40,554 nt of DNA from Deltaproteobacteria bacterium (GTDB taxonomy: Bacteria; Desulfobacterota; Desulfarculia; JACQYL01), in NCBI GenBank assembly GCA_016208165.1, contig JACQYL010000086.1:1-40554 (forward strand), read 5' to 3'. Positions 1,901 through 35,587 of this stretch are shown here, in pieces. The translations under genes and the position numbers were made by a program. Within the stretch, counting starts at the first letter, position 1. The number at the start of each line of letters is the position of its first letter. The notes below the pieces were generated by a model. It did no database searches, was not told the origin of the DNA, and was given only the letters and a program-made list of their open reading frames with translations.

Positions 1901-2668
1901 ATGCACATTCTTCTTACCAACGATGACGGGATCCATGCGCCCGGCCTATTGGCTCTGGTGGAGGGTCTGAGGGGAGAGCACGAGCTCTCGGTCATTGCTC
2001 CGGAGCAGGAACAGAGCGCCGTTGGCCACGCCATCACACTGCTTCAGCCCATCCGGGTCAAATCAATATCGCTCTGCAGCGGGATCCGAGGGCTGGCGGT
2101 AACGGGAACACCGGCGGACTGCGTCAAAATAGGCGTGGCGGAAGTGCTGTCCGCACCACCCGACCTGATCATCAGCGGAATAAACCTAGGCGCGAACGTG
2201 GGCATCGACGCTTTATACTCAGGCACGGTTTCCGCAGCCACCGAAGGCGCCATCCTGGGCGTTCCTTCCATGGCCGTTTCATTGGATACGTTTTCAGATC
2301 CCGACTTTGAGCCGGCGGTTGCCTTTATCAAAGGGTTTGTTCACCAGATATCCGAAAGACCATTCCCTCCCTCGACGGCTCTCAACATCAACGTCCCGGC
2401 TATCCCGCTTTCCCGGATTGGAGGCGTCACCGCAACCCGGCACGGGAGTTCCAGGTGCAGCGAGCGGTTCGACCGGAGAGTGGATCCTCGCGGTAATGTG
2501 TACTACTGGCAAGCAGGCGGCTCGCCTGTCCTTGACGAGAACGGTGGATCGGACCGTGAGGCGTTGGACCAGGGGAAAATCTCGATCACGCCCATACAAT
2601 ATGATCTCACGAACTATCCGGTTCTGGAGGAATTGAAGCGGTGGAAAATTCACGTGGGAACAATGTGA
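1901..2668 (+). CDS. surE: 5'/3'-nucleotidase SurE
   Basis: 255-residue SurE, a divalent-metal phosphatase that dephosphorylates nucleoside monophosphates (survival protein family, usual length about 250). Seen: the N-terminal TNDDG motif with metal ligands D8 and D9, S39 in QEQSAVGH, and N95 in SGINLGANVG, which complete the metal site. VTGTPADCV (67-75) and YSGTVSAATEG follow. The start is the ATG at 1901 with GAGAGG upstream. A TTGACA at 1774-1779 with a poor -10 may be its promoter. In proteobacteria surE often neighbours pcm or nlpD; neither is here, so it seems to be a single-gene unit. Confidence 0.95.
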   Translation: MHILLTNDDGIHAPGLLALVEGLRGEHELSVIAPEQEQSAVGHAITLLQPIRVKSISLCSGIRGLAVTGTPADCVKIGVAEVLSAPPDLIISGINLGANVGIDALYSGTVSAATEGAILGVPSMAVSLDTFSDPDFEPAVAFIKGFVHQISERPFPPSTALNINVPAIPLSRIGGVTATRHGSSRCSERFDRRVDPRGNVYYWQAGGSPVLDENGGSDREALDQGKISITPIQYDLTNYPVLEELKRWKIHVGTM

Positions 2669-3160
2669 AATTATTCCCCATGATCGAGGAATATTGAACC
2701 CATGGTCCAAAGACCGCACCCCGAGATCACCCTCTCCTCGTGCGGTCCCGAAAATGAACTGATGCTGGAACCGGCGACTCCACGCCGGGCGGACGGATTT
2801 GGCCAAGGAGCAACAAGAGGATATGTGACTAAGTTAACATACTGCTGTTATTACTATTTTACCTTTACCTCCGAATCTTTTCCCCCTGCTGCTTCGCCGC
2901 GCAGAAGAACGTACCGTCGCCTCAGGACCTACCTATAGGTCATGTAGCTAAGAAAGCCCCTCCGCAGATGTGTGAATGCATGCCGTAATGGATTCGAAGG
3001 CCGGGACTTCATTTCGGTTTTGTTGTCGAGCATTTTCTTGGAAAGATCTGTTGAAGTTTCTCTTTTTATACATTTCATCAGGTAGTTAAGCCGAGGACAG
3101 AGGCGTCGAAACAAAAGGCGCCGCGATTCCATCAACGATTTCGCATGCAAACCCAGTCTA
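2669..3160. other. Non-coding stretch after surE, with one long-loop hairpin
   Basis: No convincing gene is visible on either strand; open frames here have no ribosome site and look like chance frames. The only structure seen is a perfect 8-bp stem, 2712-2719 with 2740-2747, whose 20-base loop holds a second GAGA/TCTC pairing. It could terminate surE transcripts but lacks a clear U tract. The right part leads into the sigma-54 promoter and could hold enhancer sites, though no inverted repeat could be identified as one. Confidence 0.4.
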
Positions 3161-3176
3161 TGGCACGCCAGTTGCT
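3161..3176 (+). promoter_or_regulatory. Consensus sigma-54 (RpoN) -24/-12 promoter
   Basis: TGGCACG at 3161-3167, four bases, then TTGCT at 3172-3176. This matches the RpoN consensus TGGCACG-N4-TTGCW at every conserved base, with the GG and GC dinucleotides correctly spaced. Transcription would start near 3187, leaving a leader of about 39 bases to the zinc-ribbon gene at 3226. It implies control by an enhancer-binding protein that is not encoded in the window. Confidence 0.85.
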
Positions 3177-3225
3177 TATAACTTTGCCAACGCCTAACTG
3201 AACTCTGTTGAGGAAAGGAGTTTCG

Positions 3226-3417
3226 ATGCCGATCTACGAATACGCATGTATGAATTGCAGTCTCAGTGAAAGCAGAATAGCCGGTCTGGACGACCACACC
3301 GTCAAATGTACTTCCTGTGGCCACGATATGGAACGGCTCACAGACGGTGAGGATCTTTTCAGAGCGTACTGGGAAAACAGCGAACGCACCCCGGACAGGA
3401 ATATCAGTTCCAGTTGA
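3226..3417 (+). CDS. Small FmdB-family zinc-ribbon protein
   Basis: 63-residue protein starting MPIYEYACMNC, the classic opening of the FmdB/CxxC_CxxC regulatory family. Seen: two zinc knuckles, C8-x2-C11 and C28-x2-C31, followed by a polar tail rich in Asp, Glu and Ser with no transmembrane segment. The ATG at 3226 is chosen because AGGAAAGGAG ends five bases before it; a TTG at 3208 is in frame but lies upstream of that site. Family members are small, poorly understood putative regulators, first described near formamidase/amidase genes. The consensus sigma-54 promoter directly upstream suggests induction by a specific signal. A long perfect inverted repeat at 3758-3792 may end the transcript. 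Confidence 0.85.
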   Translation: MPIYEYACMNCSLSESRIAGLDDHTVKCTSCGHDMERLTDGEDLFRAYWENSERTPDRNISSS

Positions 3418-3872
3418 TAGACGCCGGACCTCCACCGGACAGAACCGTCTGCGCCGGCGGATTTCGGCTTGAGGCCGCCGGTTTCAGGCTTCAGCCCCTG
3501 ATGACGGAACCGTAGTGGATACCTATTCCGGTCACTTCATCGATCCGGTAGGGGACGTCATTTCTATTCCTGAACTCCATCCCGTTCTTTTCGATCAACC
3601 CGAGAACTCGTATCCGATGTCTTGTTTCCCTCCACGGCTCCCGGCGTTTATCCGCCGCATCGGAGAAGGCGAAACACCTCTTTTCGTCCGCCGATTCGGA
3701 CACGGGGATATCTCATGTCCGATTTTCGGCAATCCCTTGATCGGCGTCCGTGCGCGCAACGGCCAATGGGGAAAGTTTCCCCATTGGCCGTTTCATTCCG
3801 GTTCGACCTTCATACCGTTGACATCCTATCCCGCCTGGGATAGCATTCAACCATTTGGAGGAACAACGCCTT
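3418..3872. other. Non-coding stretch between the zinc-ribbon gene and the acetyltransferase pair
   Basis: No gene is supported. Open frames on both strands lack ribosome sites and family features. The main content is the 17-bp perfect inverted repeat at 3758-3792, listed separately. A GGAGG at 3857-3861 belongs to the next gene. Confidence 0.4.
3758..3792 (+). terminator. 17-bp perfect inverted repeat, probable terminator
   Basis: Bases 3758-3774 and 3776-3792 are exact reverse complements around a single central G, giving a 35-base near-palindrome that would fold as a very stable hairpin. The downstream bases are only modestly T-rich (GTTTCATT). It sits between the zinc-ribbon gene and the acetyltransferase pair, so it most likely terminates the former. 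A DNA-level role such as protein binding is possible. Confidence 0.55.
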
Positions 3873-4433
3873 ATGCAACTTCGATATCCAAAAGAGCTTG
3901 TGCTGAAGGATGGTACGGACGCGATCCTGAAACCCCTCGAGGCAGGGGACGGGGATGCATTGCTCCGCTTCTACTCACAGATTCCACTCGAGGACCGGTG
4001 GTTCATGAAAGAAGACGGTGCGGATCCCGTTGTGATTCGGAAATGGGTCATGGACCTGGATATCGAACGGGTATTCTCCATTCTGGCCTGGGTGAACAGC
4101 CGGGTCGTAGCCCACGCGACTTTGGTGCGCCACGTCTTCGGAGGTCTGAAGCACGTTGGCCATTTACGAATTATGGTGGCTCCCGAAGTGCGGAGAAAAC
4201 GGCTCGGCACCTGGATGTTGTTGGATTTGATCCGAAGGGCCATGGATGCAGGCATCGAACGGCTTCGATCCGATTTTGTCGTGGGCTTGGAGGACTCTGC
4301 CATTGACGCGGCCTACAAACTGGATTTCACGAAGGAGTGCGTCTTGAGAAATTTTGTTCAGGATCAGGACGGCCGTTATCACGACTACCAGATCATGGTG
4401 AAGCATCTCCACACCGAATGGAGTGACTTTTAG
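3873..4433 (+). CDS. GNAT-family N-acetyltransferase
   Basis: 186-residue single-domain GNAT protein. Seen: a core strand HLRIMVAPEVRRKRLGT around 97-113, which is motif A with the R-x-x-R/K-x-x-G acetyl-CoA pyrophosphate-binding turn, then a helix LLDLIRRAMDAG. Family knowledge: such enzymes move the acetyl group of acetyl-CoA to an amine, often a protein lysine or a small molecule. The start is taken as the ATG at 3873, eleven bases after GGAGG; an in-frame TTG at 3855 would place that site inside the gene. It ends 11 bases before an AcuA-like acetyltransferase, so the two are co-expressed. Inference: the pair may tune acetyl-CoA synthetase or other acyl-CoA enzymes by lysine acetylation. 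The acceptor is unknown. Confidence 0.8.
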   Translation: MQLRYPKELVLKDGTDAILKPLEAGDGDALLRFYSQIPLEDRWFMKEDGADPVVIRKWVMDLDIERVFSILAWVNSRVVAHATLVRHVFGGLKHVGHLRIMVAPEVRRKRLGTWMLLDLIRRAMDAGIERLRSDFVVGLEDSAIDAAYKLDFTKECVLRNFVQDQDGRYHDYQIMVKHLHTEWSDF

Positions 4434-5210: not shown

Positions 5211-6323
5211 CTAATTCGCCTCCCGTACCATCATTTCCAAGCGCTCCAGCCCTTTTTCGGGGAAGCGGTTCTGAGTCGAAACAAGTCCTCTCAGGGCTTC
5301 CAGGGCGCTGCCGTCCGCCATGGCCTCGCGGGCGCGGTCGGTGGCTGATTTCAAATCCGGGGACCGATCCATAAGCCAGAGCGCAACAGCCGCGTTGACG
5401 GCGTAAAAATCCGCCAAAGGAGTGTCCGCTTTTCCGCTCAGCACGCCAAGCGCCGCCACCGCATTATCCCGTGCGCTTTCCCGAGTCGCTATAGTCTCGT
5501 ACCGGCTTGGTTTCACACCGAAATCTTCCGGGCGCAGCGTGTATTCGTTCACAGTTCCCCCCTTGAGTTCGACACAGTGCGTTTTTCCGCACACGGAAAT
5601 TTCATCGATACCGAGCTCTTCGGGATGTTCATCACTTTGGCCGTAATAGGCCAGGGCCCGTTCCATTCCGATTTCTTTGCATATAGCGATCATCTCGGAG
5701 GCCAGCGCTTTGGAATATACGCCCAATAATAGCGTGTCCGTGGCCTTGCACGGCATGGTCAGAGGACCGATCACATTGAAGGGGGAAGTGAACCGCATGC
5801 TCTGGATCAGCCGAGCCCAGCCGGATTTGAGGAAAGCCTCGCCCGGCAGATAGCATACGCGGTTCTTCTCGAGGGAGGACCGGGCCAACTCGAGGGGACT
5901 ACCGAGGTCTACTCCCAACTCCTGGTAAATGTCCGAAGCACCCGAGACACCGGTGACTCGCTGAGCGCCTTTTTTGGCGACGTATATGCCGCAGGCCGAG
6001 ACAACCGGGGCCACCGGGCTGGATACGTTAACCGTTTTGAGCGCATCCGAACCGGTGCCCACAATGTCACAGGCCGGTTCCGGAATATTCGGTTGAATGA
6101 CTTGCGTGTCGTACAGATTCACCGCTTCCCACGCGCCGGCGATTTCTTCCACCGTCGCGCCCTTGGCCATGTGGGCCGCCAGGAAAGCTCCCTGCTGAAG
6201 TTCAGGCTGCAGATTGAGCAAGATCTGCCGGTAGCATTCACGGCTCAACGATCGCGACAGGTGTTTTCCTTGAACTAGGTCCCCAATGATTTTGCCGAAT
6301 TCTCTCAATGATTGCTCGTTCAT
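5211..6323 (-). CDS. TrpD-like phosphoribosyltransferase under B12-riboswitch control
   Basis: 370-residue member of the anthranilate phosphoribosyltransferase / glycosyltransferase-3 fold. Seen: GTGSD-x4-VNVSS (89-102), equivalent to the PRPP-binding GTGGDG-x-x-x-N-S-T loop but with Ser for the second Gly pair; KKGAQRVTGVSGASD (117-131), equivalent to KHGNR-x-SGSAD; R171 followed by SPFNVIGPLTMP (180-191), equivalent to the FN-LGPL segment near the anthranilate site. These changes place it outside canonical TrpD, and no other trp gene is nearby. It follows the dehydrogenase gene by 38 bases and shares its riboswitch leader. Inference: it is a PRPP- or ribosyl-phosphate-using enzyme tied to cobamide status, possibly acting on a nitrogen base. 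True anthranilate transferase activity is the alternative. Confidence 0.7.
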   Translation of the reverse strand: MNEQSLREFGKIIGDLVQGKHLSRSLSRECYRQILLNLQPELQQGAFLAAHMAKGATVEEIAGAWEAVNLYDTQVIQPNIPEPACDIVGTGSDALKTVNVSSPVAPVVSACGIYVAKKGAQRVTGVSGASDIYQELGVDLGSPLELARSSLEKNRVCYLPGEAFLKSGWARLIQSMRFTSPFNVIGPLTMPCKATDTLLLGVYSKALASEMIAICKEIGMERALAYYGQSDEHPEELGIDEISVCGKTHCVELKGGTVNEYTLRPEDFGVKPSRYETIATRESARDNAVAALGVLSGKADTPLADFYAVNAAVALWLMDRSPDLKSATDRAREAMADGSALEALRGLVSTQNRFPEKGLERLEMMVREAN

Positions 6324-6361: not shown

Positions 6362-7417
6362 TCAGTCACCTAGATCCGTGTCATGCGATCCCCCGTGTGT
6401 CAGGATCACCTTCAAGGATCTTTTCTCTTCCATGAGTTGGAAACCGAGTTCCATCTCTTTCAGCGATACGCTGTGGGTAAGCAGATCGCTTACGTCTATG
6501 CTTCCTTCGGCGAGCAGGGTCAGTGCTTCGTGGAAGTGCATCGGCGAGCAGCCGTAGACTCCGGCCACAAGCCACTCTTGGTAGTGGATCCGATCATGCT
6601 CGGGAAGGTGGAAAGAGCCCCTGGATCCTAAGCCGGAAAAGAACGCAATGCGTCCTCCCCGATCGAGTAGAGAAAAACCCCATTCTAACGCCACAGGATC
6701 CGAGCATGCCGGAATCACCGCATCGGCTCCGCCGCCTAATCTGTTTCGTACCTCGTCCATCCAACCCTCGGAATTCGGGTCGGCGACGATGGCGCTCTTC
6801 GGGTCATCGGCCCGCTTCGGATCCGTATCGACAAGGACGACCCTGGTGGCCCCTTTTGCCCTGGCCAGCCTTTCATGTAATCTTCCCAAAACGCCTGCGC
6901 CAAAAACGAGCACCCGGTCTCCCGGTCCCACGCCAATTTTGGACTGGGCGTTCAGGCAACAAGCCAGCGGCTCGCCCAACGTGGCGACCGCGCTTGTTAG
7001 CCTTTCGGGCAGCCGCCGCACGCCGCCAACGGAAAGCGTGTTTTCCGGCACGGCCACCAACTCTCCAAATCCGCCGTCTCTGTGAAAGCCCATGACCTGA
7101 ATGTTCGAGCATAAATGCGGCTGCCGACGCAAGCAGGCCGGACAGCTGCAGCAAGGGATGCCGGGCCAAAGGGCCACTCGCTCAGCCGGCTCCTTGGGCC
7201 AAAGGTCCGTCCCGGATTCGACCACAAATCCTGACAATTCGTGCCCCAACACTCTTGGCGGACGAAGATCCTTATGTCCCACCCGCCACATTTTCAAATC
7301 AGAGGCGCAGAAGCCGGCGTGCGTGACCCGAACCAATAGACCTCCAGGCGGGCACTCCGGATCGGGAAGTTCCTTCATCTGAATTCGCCCCGGTTTTTCA
7401 AGCACTGCGGCACGCAT
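6362..7417 (-). CDS. Zinc-dependent MDR alcohol/polyol dehydrogenase, first gene of the B12-riboswitch operon
   Basis: 351-residue medium-chain dehydrogenase of the threonine/sorbitol dehydrogenase group. Seen: catalytic zinc ligands C37 (GFCASD), H59-E60 (GHE) and E149 (GEP); a structural zinc knuckle C89, C92, C95, C103; and a Rossmann motif GAGVLG (173-178) followed by an acidic VLVD, suggesting NAD preference. The start is the ATG at 7417 preceded by AGGGGG; a longer open frame to 7546 would run through the terminator hairpin and is rejected. The leader contains a cobalamin riboswitch and intrinsic terminator, so the gene should be repressed when cobamide is plentiful. The substrate is not deducible; threonine, aminopropanol-type or polyol substrates fit the family. 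Confidence 0.82.
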   Translation of the reverse strand: MRAAVLEKPGRIQMKELPDPECPPGGLLVRVTHAGFCASDLKMWRVGHKDLRPPRVLGHELSGFVVESGTDLWPKEPAERVALWPGIPCCSCPACLRRQPHLCSNIQVMGFHRDGGFGELVAVPENTLSVGGVRRLPERLTSAVATLGEPLACCLNAQSKIGVGPGDRVLVFGAGVLGRLHERLARAKGATRVVLVDTDPKRADDPKSAIVADPNSEGWMDEVRNRLGGGADAVIPACSDPVALEWGFSLLDRGGRIAFFSGLGSRGSFHLPEHDRIHYQEWLVAGVYGCSPMHFHEALTLLAEGSIDVSDLLTHSVSLKEMELGFQLMEEKRSLKVILTHGGSHDTDLGD

Positions 7418-7491
7418 CAGATCCCCCTGAAAGTTGGTTGGAGAACGGGAATCGCATTCCGCGGGAACGCACTCCCGACAAACAAACAAAA

Positions 7492-7523
7492 ATCCCCTAT
7501 TCCCAGTGCGAGGAATAGGGGAT
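7492..7523 (-). terminator. Intrinsic terminator in the riboswitch leader
   Basis: A perfect 12-bp stem (7492-7503 with 7512-7523, 8-base loop) is followed on the minus strand by T5-G-T3-G-T3. It lies between the riboswitch aptamer (ends 7552) and the dehydrogenase start (7417), in the position expected of an expression platform. No complete gene ends upstream of it on this strand, so it acts as an attenuator rather than an end-of-gene terminator. Confidence 0.88.
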
Positions 7524-7551
7524 ACTCTTGCCTCAAGTGACCCCATGTCGT

Positions 7552-7698
7552 CGATCCATGCGTCTTCTGGCTTCCGGTTCAGCCTCCTCCCACCCTTCCC
7601 ACCCCGCTTGCATACAGGGCAGTGGCTCTGTGGGAATCGTCACCGGTTACAGCGGCGGGACCGCCACGGAGTTGCACCGTGTTCCGATTCATGGATCG
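7552..7698 (-). promoter_or_regulatory. Cobalamin riboswitch (RF00174 type)
   Basis: Read on the minus strand the order of conserved elements is complete. P1 5' strand CGATCCATG is at 7690-7698, GGTGCAACTCC at 7668-7678, then GCGG-TCCCGCC-GCTGTAA around 7648-7664. GCCACTG follows at 7620-7626, GGGAAGG near 7593-7599, the B12-box-like AGCCAGAAGACG at 7561-7572, and the P1 3' strand CATGGATCG at 7552-7560. The two P1 strands pair over nine bases without mismatch. The element is followed 28 bases later by an intrinsic terminator and then the dehydrogenase/TrpD-like operon. Family knowledge: cobamide binding normally stabilises the off state. Confidence 0.93.
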
Positions 7699-7886
7699 AA
7701 TCTGCACTATTCTATACGCGTGAATCCACGCTCCGTCAAGTCCTGAACGCCGTATGTTTTCCCGGAGCTTCAACCTGAACGCTTTCCCTGTTGAATGCGC
7801 CGACAATCGGAGGTATGGTCGTAGAGAGTGGCGGAAAATTCGAGCCGGCGGGCACGCGCCGCACCCAAAAGGAACGAAAAGATCGT

Positions 7887-12147: not shown

Positions 12148-14178
12148 CTAGTATTCCGACGGTTCAGGCCGGAGCAAACTCATGCTCCCCAAGGCCTGAA
12201 CAGCATCAACGCATTCACCGAAGAACTCCTTCGGACTCATCGCATTCCCATAGCGCGGATACAACTGCTCCGCGATGTGAGTAAGACTTTCTTCTCCACT
12301 GCACAGATTCAGAAAGTCTCTGCCGAAATCGTTGATTTCCGTCACTTCGAGCCGCTCGTCTTTCTGCTGAAAGACCAGAAGCGTGCGTTCCAAAGGGTAT
12401 TGTTCAAAAAACTTTGAGGACCTCATGTCCCGGACGATTTCAGGAACCGGGTAGTCAAAGGTTTCCAGCAGGAATGCCTTTGAGCGCAACGGTTTAAATT
12501 CCCGTATCCGGTGCTGGTCTATGTGAAAGTTCGTTTCTACGGATTTGAGTTTCCCCACTTCCAGCCCGCAGGTTTCGTACCTGAGTACGTCCGAGAGATG
12601 GTTCCGAAAAGCATGTGGGCCCGATATCCGAAGATGTCCGACAAACGAGGAAAACCGCTCGTAACAGTCTCGAGCACTGCACGTGAGTTTTCCCTGCGGC
12701 GATTTCGCTCCGAGCCAGGCCAACCATTCGAGGAAAACATCAGACGGGGATTTGCCGATGTCAAGGGTCAGTAGAAAAAAAGTCTTCGGATACAGATTCA
12801 CCATTAATGGGAAGTACTCCGTAATCAAAGCCAATTCGCTCAGACTTCGCCCCATGTTCGGAACATTGTAGAATGCGCTGTAGATCTCCCGGTCGGAATT
12901 GATCAGATCGTCATCGGATTCCAGTCGTCGGCCATCGTCAAATTCCAGGCCTAGAGCAAAATAGGTGTCCACTTCCCGCACCAAACGGTCGAGGTATGTA
13001 CGGTGAAGATCCGTTCCCGGAAGTACGGTAGGCATCTGAAGAAGCGTGTTCACATTTCCCAGGATGCCGGTCCTCAGAGCCAGATTCAAGGTGTCGTCGA
13101 CATCTTCCTCGCGCTCTTCGGGAAATCCGATCACATAGCTGAGGGTGGGAACGATTCCCCGGTCCGTGGTCTCGAGGACGCGTTGATACAAGATGCCCTC
13201 ATCAATGTTCTTTCGAATAAAGGCGAGGGTGCGTTTGGATCCGGAATCGATGCCGTAACACATGGATTCGCATCCCGCTTCACGCATCAACTCGAGCAAT
13301 TCCGCGTCCACACTGTCGAGCCTGGAGATGCAGTACCAGGGCAGATTATTCAACTTTTCCCGAATCATCGCCCGGCAAAAGTCCGTTACGAACGCCCTTG
13401 AAGCGGTAAACTGGTCATACGCCAGCAAGAAACACTCGGCGCCGAATTCCCTATGGAGGTATCCCATCTCCTGAATGAGGCGTTCCACGGAAAAGCGTCG
13501 CGTCTGCCTGCGCCACATGACGGACTCGGAGCAATAGACACAACGGTGGGGGCATCCCCGCCCGACCTCGAGGATGGCAATACTCCTCGGGAGTTCGCAG
13601 GCATCTCTGTATACGGAAAAGGACGGGAGACGATCATATCGAGGAAGAGGCAGCTCGTTCAGATCGGCGATTAACGGCCGATCTTCGGTGCGTAGAATCT
13701 CGCTGCCGTCCCGGAACGTAACCCCGGCCACGTCCTTTCTTCCTTTTTGCTCCTCGATGGCGGATATCCATTCCGGAAAGGTGACTTCTCCCTCCCCGCG
13801 TATGACCGAATCGATCCAAGGGTAACGTTCGAGCGTCTGAACATCGATGAAGGAGGCCGTATGTCCGCCCACGACAATATGAATCCGCTTATTCCTCGAC
13901 TTGATACGCCGGGCAATTTGAATCACGGCAGGATAGGTGGTGCTTTGCGCCGAGAATCCTACGACGTCGGGATCGTCATTCAGGATCATGGATGCGCATC
14001 GGTCATAGATCTCTTTTCCCATACGAAGTTCGCCCACGCGTAGCTGTAGGACAAAGTCCGTCACATGCACCTTGTGTCGAGTCTCGTTCACCGAGGTAGC
14101 GAGGTTTATCAGCCCCAGCGGCGGTAGATTGTACAAGGACTCGAGATAAAAGGGAGGGAAAGCGAGCGAAATATTCAT
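12148..14178 (-). CDS. B12-binding-type radical SAM peptide maturase with C-terminal PqqD-like recognition domain
   Basis: 676-residue enzyme. Seen: an N-terminal Rossmann-like cobalamin-binding-type domain (about 1-140, including VVGFSAQST, IVVGGHTASF and VIRGEGEVTF); a radical SAM core with GRGCPHRCVYCSES, cluster cysteines C209, C213 and C216; a GYGIDSGS-like SAM segment near 308-315; and GFPEE near 351. The C-terminus (about 600-670) has the EINDFGRDFLNLCSGEES pattern followed by helices, as in PqqD-like RiPP recognition elements. No D-x-H-x2-G base-off motif is present, as in many relatives. ATG 14178 is chosen for its GAGGTG site; a longer frame to 14247 would overlap the upstream gene. 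The precursor gene follows at 20 bases. The reaction (methylation, cross-link or other) cannot be deduced. Confidence 0.85.
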   Translation of the reverse strand: MNISLAFPPFYLESLYNLPPLGLINLATSVNETRHKVHVTDFVLQLRVGELRMGKEIYDRCASMILNDDPDVVGFSAQSTTYPAVIQIARRIKSRNKRIHIVVGGHTASFIDVQTLERYPWIDSVIRGEGEVTFPEWISAIEEQKGRKDVAGVTFRDGSEILRTEDRPLIADLNELPLPRYDRLPSFSVYRDACELPRSIAILEVGRGCPHRCVYCSESVMWRRQTRRFSVERLIQEMGYLHREFGAECFLLAYDQFTASRAFVTDFCRAMIREKLNNLPWYCISRLDSVDAELLELMREAGCESMCYGIDSGSKRTLAFIRKNIDEGILYQRVLETTDRGIVPTLSYVIGFPEEREEDVDDTLNLALRTGILGNVNTLLQMPTVLPGTDLHRTYLDRLVREVDTYFALGLEFDDGRRLESDDDLINSDREIYSAFYNVPNMGRSLSELALITEYFPLMVNLYPKTFFLLTLDIGKSPSDVFLEWLAWLGAKSPQGKLTCSARDCYERFSSFVGHLRISGPHAFRNHLSDVLRYETCGLEVGKLKSVETNFHIDQHRIREFKPLRSKAFLLETFDYPVPEIVRDMRSSKFFEQYPLERTLLVFQQKDERLEVTEINDFGRDFLNLCSGEESLTHIAEQLYPRYGNAMSPKEFFGECVDAVQALGSMSLLRPEPSEY

Positions 14179-14212
14179 AAGCACCTCAAACGAACCGGGC
14201 TTTCCACAATTC

Positions 14213-15115
14213 CTAAACCTCATCCAGGAGGGATTCGATTTTCGCACCCTCTACAAGACCGCTGATCCATTCTTCGGGTATGCCTTCCGCTCCGAGCCAG
14301 GCGCCCAATACCATACCCTCGATCATGCCGCGGGCGGCGGAATCGCCTCCAGCCATCACGTTTTCGATCAGAGCATCCTTGAGATTACTTTCATACTTAG
14401 CGATCAGGTGGATAACGCTCGGGAAAGCTTGAGCCGTGTGGCAGCTCTGTCCGAAACGGCCGATTGCCGGCGCGCTTTCCCGGTTGACGGAGCCAAGTCC
14501 ATCTGAAACCCATTCCGCGATCGGGGCATCCTTGAAAGGCTCGCCGGCGACCTCCCGAATGACCGACACCGGGGAACCGCCATCGAGCACCTTCCGGACC
14601 ACCCTGGCAAAGAACTCCGCGCTGTCGATTACAAGGGGATTATTGTGCGTCATTCTGGTCTGAGCTCGGGCGGACTCGACGAGTCCCTCCGGATCGCTTC
14701 TCAAAGCATATACCAGTGGAGCTATGCGTCCCGCTCCTGCAAGATCGGTGGAAGAAGAGCCCGACGTCGCGGGGCCTGCCCCGGAATCGAAATTCATCAT
14801 GGTTGCTTTTGTAGCCTTGTCCAAATACCCATTGTACTCTCTGAAAAGCGCACGCCAACGTTCGGAAAAATCGGAAAGATCAAATCGCTTCCGTGCAGCC
14901 AAGGACTCGAGAAGCACCATCGTTTGATCGCCGTAATGAGTAAAGGCGCCCCGCCGTTTCGTGGCATGGTAGGAATTCGGAACCGCATCAAGCAATCCTT
15001 CGATACGACCGAATTCGGCTTCAATCATCTGGGTGTCATAAATCCAATGCGCACCCAGGGCCAGCGAGTCGCCTGCGAACGAAGCTATCACCATAGCCTT
15101 TGCTTTATCTTGCAT
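14213..15115 (-). CDS. ADP-ribosylglycohydrolase family protein
   Basis: 300-residue all-helical enzyme of the DraG/ARH family, which removes ADP-ribose from proteins or small molecules with two Mg ions. Seen: ASFAGDSLALGAHWIYD at the N-terminus, GDQT (62-65) in place of the more common T/S-D-D-T, and AGGDSAARG near 253-262 in place of GGDTDTNA, so the metal site is kept with variant residues. HTAQAFPSVIHL is also typical. ATG 15115 has GAGGGCGGA upstream. It is the first gene of the minus-strand cassette, 34 bases ahead of the radical SAM gene. Inference: it may be a regulatory or immunity partner of the RiPP cassette, or simply co-transcribed. Confidence 0.8.
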   Translation of the reverse strand: MQDKAKAMVIASFAGDSLALGAHWIYDTQMIEAEFGRIEGLLDAVPNSYHATKRRGAFTHYGDQTMVLLESLAARKRFDLSDFSERWRALFREYNGYLDKATKATMMNFDSGAGPATSGSSSTDLAGAGRIAPLVYALRSDPEGLVESARAQTRMTHNNPLVIDSAEFFARVVRKVLDGGSPVSVIREVAGEPFKDAPIAEWVSDGLGSVNRESAPAIGRFGQSCHTAQAFPSVIHLIAKYESNLKDALIENVMAGGDSAARGMIEGMVLGAWLGAEGIPEEWISGLVEGAKIESLLDEV

Positions 15116-33451: not shown

Positions 33452-34252
33452 TCAGGAGCCGTCGGCGTATAACGTGTGGTAGAGCAACTCGACCATATCC
33501 ACGATACGGGGACCGGTCCTGCAGGTCAGGTTGCAGTCGAACATGAATACCCGATTCGTGGCGACGGCTTTGAATTGCTTCCATCGAGGGTGTTCCTTCA
33601 GCCTGGGTATGAATCGGCGGTCGTAGCCGCAGAAGAATACCACATCCGGATCCCATTCGAGGAACCGAGACATGGAAACCCGGGGGTAAGCCTCCGAAAT
33701 CCCGCTGGTGACAGTGCGCCCGCCCGCCCGGAGGATCACGTCGTACTGAAAGGAGTGCGGGCCCGCCACGAGCAGCTCCTCCCCCTTCCACTCCAGAACG
33801 CGCGAAACAGTGAGGCGTTCCGTCCATGGCAAGCGGCCGACCGCCGCATCCACCCGTTCGAGGCGTTGCCTCAGGCCGGCCAACAGCCGTTCGGCCTCGT
33901 CCGTCGCATGGAATAGTTTCCCGAACGTTCGTATGGCTTCGAGCGCTTCATTCACGGAAGTAGGCATCGTCAGTATTACTTCCACACCGGGAACGGTCTG
34001 CTCCAACACCGGTTTCAGCCGTTGGTGAACGGATTCAAGGCCCAGGATCAGGTCGGGCCCCAGAGCGCGGATTCGCTCCGGATCCGGATCGAACCAGGAA
34101 GTCACGTGAGGCTTCGCGGAAGCTTCCACGGGATAGTCACACGTATCGGTCACGCCGATCACCCGATCTCCGAGTCCCAGGGCGAACAACGTTTCCGTGA
34201 TGGACGGCGTCAGAGACACGATACGTCGATAGGTTTGACGGCGATGTTGCAT
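33452..34252 (-). CDS. BtuF-like cobalamin/Fe-siderophore-type substrate-binding protein lacking a signal peptide
   Basis: 266-residue class III periplasmic-binding-protein fold. Seen: RIVSLTPSITETLFALGLGDRVIGVT (10-35, split as RIVSLTPSITETLFALGLG and DRVIGVT), the usual opening of BtuF-type proteins, then PDLILGLE, GGRTVTSGISEAYPRVSMS, and a C-terminal RTGPRIVDMVELL. The N-terminus before this is only MQHRRQTYR, with no export signal or lipobox; the upstream extension to 34354 gives none either. No ABC permease or ATPase adjoins it. Inference: a cytoplasmic or lone corrinoid/ligand-binding protein, or a gene whose true start is unrecognised. The B12 link is by family only. Confidence 0.75.
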   Translation of the reverse strand: MQHRRQTYRRIVSLTPSITETLFALGLGDRVIGVTDTCDYPVEASAKPHVTSWFDPDPERIRALGPDLILGLESVHQRLKPVLEQTVPGVEVILTMPTSVNEALEAIRTFGKLFHATDEAERLLAGLRQRLERVDAAVGRLPWTERLTVSRVLEWKGEELLVAGPHSFQYDVILRAGGRTVTSGISEAYPRVSMSRFLEWDPDVVFFCGYDRRFIPRLKEHPRWKQFKAVATNRVFMFDCNLTCRTGPRIVDMVELLYHTLYADGS

Positions 34253-34604
34253 AATTTCATCTTTCGGGTTCGGGATGTGTGGCCGGCGCCCGCGGTATAT
34301 TCTCAAGCGCTTCCAGTCGTATGCGGCCGATATACACGCGTTGCCCCCGCTCATACAAACACTTTTTGCTCCGCTGGATCACCCGCATCGAGTAAGAACA
34401 CGAGATATCCTGGCCTCGACGCTTCAAAGAACAGGAAAAGGCTTTCGCATGGAGCCCATGCCGTTCGGTCCCCGGTCCGGAGCCGGCCGGCCGTGCCCCA
34501 TGGCTGCATCGAAGAGGGGCTTGGAGCAGCCCTGAATAATCCGGTTTGCATCCTGCCGCGGACGGCTTGCTCGGCCGGTTGCCGCCCCGGAACTTGGAAT
34601 TATT
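34253..34604. other. Divergent spacer between BtuF-like and collagen-like genes
   Basis: No gene and no riboswitch-like element was recognised on either strand; in particular none of the cobalamin aptamer boxes seen at 7552-7698 occurs here. The A+T-rich right end forms the promoter of the collagen-like gene. Confidence 0.4.
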
Positions 34605-34723: not shown

Positions 34724-35587
34724 ATGAAGAAGGGGATTCTGTTTTCGGTTCTGCTGGTGATCGTTCTGGTGTGGGCTGCGCCTTCCTTTGCCCAGGACGG
34801 CGTCTGGAAAGACGACCTTATAGCGCCCACGGTGAGTTTCTATGTTCAAGCGTACGACGTGAACCCGAAGTCGGCGGTGGTGATCTATTCGCCTGAAGGG
34901 GTCAACTTCGCGGCATTCCTGACAGCCGACCTTGCCGCCGGAGTAGACGCCGATGACCTGGGAAACCAGGGACACCACCTTAAAATGACCTTCGTGGACA
35001 ATGACAATGCCACGGCCACCCTGAAACTGGCGGGAGCGGCCGAAGAAGATTTTGTTCTGGTGCGGCAGTTTATAAGCAACCAGGGTCCTGCCGGACCCAA
35101 AGGCGATCCGGGCGATCCGGGCGATCCGGGGCCCCAGGGTCCGGCCGGGGAGAAAGGCGACAAGGGCGATAAAGGCGACACGGGCGCGCAAGGACCTGCC
35201 GGGCCCGCTGGACCCGCCGGACCTGCCGGCGCTGCAGGCGCCGCCGGCGCCAAAGGAGATAAAGGAGATCCGGGCCAGGGTCTGCTGGCCGGAGTCCTCG
35301 TAAAGTTGAGCGACGGCGTGGTCAGCATCCACCGGTGGTTCAACAACGTCAACGGAGTCGCTCCTATCCTGTCCGGCAGCAATGGGGATTACTCAGTCAA
35401 CATGGGGTTCAATGTAGCGGATCGATACGTCTCGTGTACCGTGGAAACCAACACCGTAGTGACCCGCAATGCGAACTGCGTCGCCGGCGTGCCTTGGCAT
35501 GTCCCCTCCTCCAACGTTGTATCCGTGTACATCTGGGATCCGGAAGACGGCTACACCAAAGGAGGTTTCTACCTGTTGGTGTACTGA
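34724..35587 (+). CDS. Secreted collagen-like repeat protein
   Basis: 287-residue exported protein. Seen: a signal peptide over 1-23 (ends SFA), an N-terminal beta domain (about 25-118), an uninterrupted run of 21 to 22 G-x-y triplets from G121 to about G186 ([21 protein letters not shown] types), and a C-terminal domain (about 187-287) with two cysteines, CTVETN and NCVAG. Family knowledge: bacterial collagen-like stalks form triple helices and hold trimeric heads. GDK/GEK charge pairs fit such stabilisation. AAAGGAG precedes the ATG. It is a single-gene unit between a strong promoter and a strong terminator. Confidence 0.88.

Follow-up and report, generated by a model that had tools for sequence, protein, structure and literature searches.

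The ADH-PRT gene pair and its cobalamin riboswitch

The window, i.e., the whole stretch of 40,554 nucleotides that was analysed, carries on its minus strand two genes lying downstream of a cobalamin riboswitch. The first gene (6362..7417, minus strand), referred to as ADH, encodes a Zn-dependent dehydrogenase of the NAD type; its reading frame is intact from the ATG start codon at 7417(-), and the protein matches the Pfam domains ADH_N and ADH_zinc_N (PF08240, PF00107) with conserved zinc and GxGxxG motifs. The second gene (5211..6323, minus strand), referred to as PRT, encodes a phosphoribosyltransferase of the TrpD fold (PF00591, PF02885) belonging to a clade of its own. The original prediction had named a zinc alcohol dehydrogenase and a TrpD-like phosphoribosyltransferase as the targets of the riboswitch, and both identities hold according to Pfam and NCBIfam. 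To our knowledge, the pair stands outside the known cobamide genes.

A cmscan search of the whole window returned a single Rfam match above its gathering cut-off, the cobalamin riboswitch RF00174 at 7738-7542 (minus strand), where the score of 86.1 bits exceeds the cut-off of 31.5 (E-value 4.9e-20). The match spans the full model (1-189), and the predicted riboswitch is thus confirmed as a complete aptamer. The P1 helix associates a 5' arm at 7690..7699 with a 3' arm at 7551..7560 (minus strand), which are perfect complements over 10 bp, rather than the 9 bp initially proposed, and which are paired in the minimum-energy fold. Downstream, a pattern scan located an intrinsic terminator at 7492..7523 (minus strand) made of a T run and a stem of 13 bp, where 12 bp had been announced; with its -21.2 kcal/mol, it is the likely expression platform of the riboswitch. 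The 261-nt riboswitch region folds with a z-score of -3.41 relative to shuffled sequences. The platform had also been described as complete, which applies to the terminator but not to the antiterminator: no convincing one emerged from the predictions at this riboswitch, the alternative pairing comprising only about 4 G-C pairs. The riboswitch would turn down the ADH-PRT pair when cobamide is plentiful.

Other cobamide-related features of the genome and the window

Four RF00174 matches occur in the genome, the copy from the window being the lowest-scoring one. The other three precede, at L038, a BzaF-like/cobT operon, at L039, an ExbB/TonB locus and, at L040, a gene for a secreted protein. At L038 (contig C24, 5329-11650), the genes behind the riboswitch look like a BzaF-like one, cobT and those for a methyltransferase and for a radical SAM protein that binds B12, an arrangement which reads as an anaerobic benzimidazole operon in the very genome that harbours the pair. 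At L040 (contig C18), the riboswitch at 3770-3937(-) lies ahead of a secreted-looking protein of 492 aa (2114-3592, minus strand), which is devoid of any Pfam match and is possibly a surface cobamide-binding protein; its N-terminal part resembles, by eye, the start of the protein encoded at 34724-35587(+) of the window, itself secreted-looking and built of collagen-like Gly-x-y repeats (PF01391). The window additionally contains a BtuF-like periplasmic binding protein (33452-34354, minus strand; PF01497), with no riboswitch above the gathering cut-off alongside, and a radical SAM protein with a B12-binding domain (12148-14247, minus strand), whose nearest NCBIfam family, ApyD, is matched far under its cut-off.

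Structural features of the two proteins

ADH resembles the medium-chain Zn dehydrogenases, e.g., threonine dehydrogenase and IolM, by its zinc ligands and its GxGxxG motif, the catalytic and structural zinc ligands and the nucleotide motif being present in 72-78 of 78 ADHs. It differs from them in that it passes none of the cut-offs of the 20 NCBIfam families listed for it, L-threonine 3-dehydrogenase being the best match with 142.3 bits against a cut-off of 380, and in that it occurs fused to CobT in some genomes.

PRT resembles TrpD by its family score (228.6 bits against TIGR01245, above the trpD cut-off of 199.05), by its predicted structure (pLDDT 93.8), which adopts the TrpD fold with Z values of about 44 to TrpD structures, and by its PRPP/Mg-binding residues, since 95-96 of 96 pair PRTs conserve GTG.D with the next T and N, as well as the DE pair. 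In contrast to this overall likeness, a tree built with 35 canonical TrpD sequences gathers all 96 pair PRTs in one separate clade (support 0.994), and two residues that are invariant in the canonical enzymes have been lost. The Asn of the KHGN motif is replaced by A or S in 96/96 pair PRTs, while I, L, T or V stands in place of the GPR/PVR Arg (counts covering 95 of the 96 sequences), column counts finding this Arg retained in none of the 96; a two-residue deletion accompanies these changes in 92. Both positions presumably correspond to the anthranilate-contacting sites of TrpD, a role with which the PDB titles of the N138A and R193 TrpD variants agree. Close to the lost Arg, R170 is conserved in 92/96 PRTs and might still bind a carboxylate.

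Two further TrpD homologues are encoded in the same genome, one of which (L006) displays the canonical motifs. BluB is not among the NCBIfam matches of either protein, and family models would label the pair as trpD plus alcohol dehydrogenase.

Distribution of the pair

Among 59 relatives searched besides the genome of the window, a single one (G025) possesses a close PRT orthologue, which shares 62% identity and exhibits the same layout of RF00174, ADH and PRT. A scan of named genomes yielded 79 PRT loci, distributed among the Desulfobacterota, Chlorobiota, Nitrososphaerota (Bathycorpusculum), Dehalococcoidia, Kiritimatiellota, Lentisphaeria, Peptococcaceae and others; no PRT relatives were found in viral contigs, nor on plasmids at 1e-60. 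Desulfonema magnum and a Chlorobium strain are among the carriers in culture. Extra loci brought the set to 98 PRT-holding loci, in 87 of which ADH and PRT are adjacent on the same strand, with ADH first in 80 and PRT first in 7.

In the survey of homologous pairs for an upstream RF00174, suggested along with the original prediction, a same-strand riboswitch occurs at most 313 bp upstream of the first pair gene at 21 of the 98 loci, and none is seen upstream of the pair at the other 77, at least 400 bp of upstream sequence being in view at 76 of the 98. Scores of the custom covariance model are non-independent, as it was trained on 21 aptamers, many of them from pair loci; the independent Rfam model RF00174 confirms 20 of the 21 upstream riboswitches, that of L155 relying on the custom model alone.

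Within the Chlorobi, two loci (L107 and L113) each contain three cobalamin riboswitches inside about 3.5 kb around the pair; these loci combine a riboswitch at the pair with the lack of BluB, four BluB carriers (L106, L109, L117 and L149) have the pair without a riboswitch, and L116 has neither. Other surroundings were also encountered. In Bathycorpusculum, archaea from the termite gut, the pair (L089, L091) lies without a riboswitch a few kb from putative tetrahydromethanopterin synthesis genes (RFAP-synthase-like). In a Dehalococcoidia locus (L074, 2-8122, plus strand), the pair comes last in a row of genes that look by eye like hemA, hemC, cobA/hemD, hemB and hemL.

Linkage to CobT and nucleotide-loop operons

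At some loci, the pair is inserted in operons devoted to the nucleotide loop of cobamides (genes named by NCBIfam at L159 and L128, by eye or tblastn elsewhere). The order riboswitch, ADH, PRT, cobT, cobS, cobD, cbiB occurs at L159 and L160, and is shortened to riboswitch, ADH, PRT, cobT, cobS at L153 and to riboswitch, ADH, PRT, cobT at L162. At L128 the order is cobQ, cobU, ADH, PRT, cobT, cobS; at L075 and L080, cobT, cobS, a CobD/CobQ fusion and cbiB precede ADH and PRT, and at L107 the order is riboswitch, ADH, PRT, riboswitch, btuB, btuF, cobQ, cobD, cbiB. Altogether, cobT is present in 13 of the 98 loci, against about 0.28 expected from their length, and any of the seven cob genes searched in 15; the remaining 83 loci, many of them short, contain none of the seven, and the pair of the window itself has no adjoining cobT. 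Where it is recognisable, the context of PRT is that of cobamides rather than of tryptophan. The exception is L153 (3427-11999, minus strand), where the riboswitch-pair-cobT-cobS operon directly follows an apparent complete trp operon equipped with its own canonical TrpD.

The association with CobT extends to gene fusion. In G145, ADH and CobT share one open frame of 716 aa, the C-terminal part of which scores 412.8 bits as CobT against an NCBIfam cut-off of 319.3, and a stop-free ADH-CobT fusion was found in 5 of the 57 genomes searched around it. A genome from a different family (G161, locus L158) exhibits the succession riboswitch, PRT and ADH-CobT fusion (705 aa). Fusions are therefore known from six genomes in two families, that of G161 being the one fused operon with a riboswitch. 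Comparison of four fused cassettes with wider flanks revealed no additional common neighbour. In G145 (L154, L197), CobT occurs at four places, i.e., in the ADH fusion, beside bzaF and at two others, and the copy joined to ADH is probably a dedicated one; these four places make a case for CobT copies each devoted to a different base.

Co-occurrence with CobT, BzaF and BluB

In a phylum sample of 395 evenly drawn genomes, 20 qualify as PRT carriers (at least 200 bits). CobT is present in all 20, as compared to 251 of the 375 others, the Fisher p of 4e-4 being indicative since the sampled genomes are related. Among 50 pair-bearing genomes, 40 possess a strong CobT match (at least 350 bits); the other ten comprise five archaeal genomes with matches of about 30 bits, one with a short partial match and four with none. 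In view of the 40 strong matches, a role of the pair as a replacement for CobT was rejected.

BzaF (at least 58% identity) occurs in 11 of the 50 pair genomes. Within the phylum sample it is neither enriched nor depleted, with 4/20 pair-bearing genomes against 78/375 others (at least 60% identity, one partial match included), so that the idea of the pair substituting for an absent bza system is unsupported. BluB exceeds its cut-off in 4 of 65 carriers, all of them Chlorobiaceae, and does not do so in the genome of the window.

Proposed function of the pair

Taken together, the conserved riboswitch (21/98 loci), the nucleotide-loop operons, the ADH-CobT fusions and the co-occurrence with CobT bear out the original suggestion of a new cobamide-related step. 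The ADH and PRT genes are probably overlooked B12 genes, and because these four lines of evidence converge, we hold with great confidence that they act alongside CobT in the assembly of the nucleotide loop.

As to the step involved, an analogy is offered by the BluB/CobT2 fusion of Propionibacterium freudenreichii, described in the available part of PMC4657239 as a single protein that makes and activates the base. Like the ADH-CobT fusion, it joins an enzyme to CobT in the context of the lower ligand. Considering this analogy and the types of enzymes involved, the pair may supply or prepare the lower-ligand base for CobT, as an oxygen-independent counterpart of BluB, a proposal whose chances we consider evenly balanced. 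The enzymes themselves are distinct, BluB being a flavin-destroying, oxygen-requiring protein of the nitroreductase type, and the pair a Zn dehydrogenase with a TrpD-fold phosphoribosyltransferase. The bza system (BzaF/BzaAB) shares with the pair its anaerobic character, its proximity to cobT and, in the genome of the window (L038), its control by a cobalamin riboswitch. However, bza proteins are unrelated in sequence to the pair, bza chemistry is radical, and both systems coexist in some genomes. According to the portion of PMC6461909 available, bza relies on ThiC-like and other chemistry starting from AIR.

A chemical scheme may be sketched along these lines. Under ample cobamide, the riboswitch would keep the two-gene cassette repressed. 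Once expressed, PRT would move the phosphoribose of PRPP onto an aromatic amine, the dehydrogenase would take two electrons from the attached sugar, and ring closure with loss of the sugar tail would deliver a base that CobT would then load. TrpD-like enzymes attach a ribose to an aromatic amine; by our own argument, turning a diamine that bears such a ribosyl group into a benzimidazole would require the removal of two electrons, a task that an NAD-type dehydrogenase could perform. This particular chemistry is rather doubtful. Equally speculative is its most far-reaching form, in which the pair would open a new way, free of both oxygen and radicals, to lower ligands of the benzimidazole type, with PRT deriving a ring carbon from PRPP in a TrpD-like manner, the dehydrogenase carrying out the two-electron oxidation and CobT, in some cases within one polypeptide, receiving the base. 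Two points speak against base supply as such: no source of an aromatic diamine was identified for the pair, and its distribution is not complementary to that of bza. Moreover, base supply would be redundant in some carriers, since BzaF occurs in 11/50 and BluB in 4/65. Further points against the overall proposal are the 77 loci with no riboswitch upstream, the 83 devoid of the cob genes searched, the distance of the window's own pair from cobT, the fused cassettes having no other gene in common, the conserved R170 of PRT and the failure to find an antiterminator.

The pair could instead partner CobT without making the base, either in the salvage or remodelling of lower-ligand nucleotides or through a phosphoribosylated intermediate, e.g., as an alternative donor or by turning a beta-ribotide, via a keto sugar, into its alpha counterpart. 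Operons and fusions fit these readings equally well, the genomes that combine the pair with BzaF or BluB speak for them, and so does the fact that the fused cassettes require no other common gene. Nevertheless, CobT, which activates bases using NaMN, stands beside the pair and a second route is not evidently needed, and the recurrent neighbours include no salvage gene; jointly, these readings have a real but minor chance of being correct.

It is improbable that ADH makes the aminopropanol linker and that PRT plays a separate part in cobamide synthesis. The resemblance of ADH to threonine dehydrogenase, from a family acting on related amino alcohols, and the occurrence of CobD and CbiB within the same operons would suit such a role, but the score of 142.3 bits is far under the L-threonine 3-dehydrogenase cut-off, the linker-making CobD is already there, PRT would be left without a role and the fusion to CobT without a reason.

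B12-independent isozymes are known targets of cobalamin riboswitches, and the pair had accordingly also been envisaged as a B12-bypass step, replacing a cobamide-dependent reaction under cobamide scarcity; metE and nrdD are named in this respect in the part of PMC8620254 available. That view is disfavoured by the company that the pair keeps with cobamide biosynthesis genes, namely the operons with cobT, cobS, cobD and cbiB, the CobT fusion and the CobT found in 20/20 carriers, which render it very improbable. It is likewise scarcely credible that PRT is an ordinary TrpD under incidental riboswitch control, as the TIGR01245 score and the apparent trp operon ahead of the L153 pair might suggest, given the separate clade, the anthranilate-site residues altered in 96/96, the two other TrpD homologues of the genome and the many loci linked to riboswitches and cob genes.

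The preferred reading remains a riboswitch-repressed pair that works with CobT, most likely by supplying or preparing the lower-ligand base, an assignment made with middling confidence.

Significance for cobamide biology

The search, which extended to the open-licence full text of PMC (subscription literature lying outside its scope), brought up no earlier report connecting the pair with cobamides. The variable genes of an Antarctic Chlorobium include a trpD and a dehydrogenase, no link being drawn in the available part of that article (PMC8620254).

The lower ligand governs who can use a cobamide. If true, the non-radical route could explain cobamides that anaerobes make with a base for which no pathway is known, such as the 5-methylbenzimidazolyl cobamides reportedly described from sulfate reducers in 1988. 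According to the accessible part of PMC6461909, prediction of the lower ligand succeeded for no more than 58% of cobamide producers. A widespread riboswitch-controlled pair, fused in places to CobT, makes the missing lower-ligand prediction directly testable.
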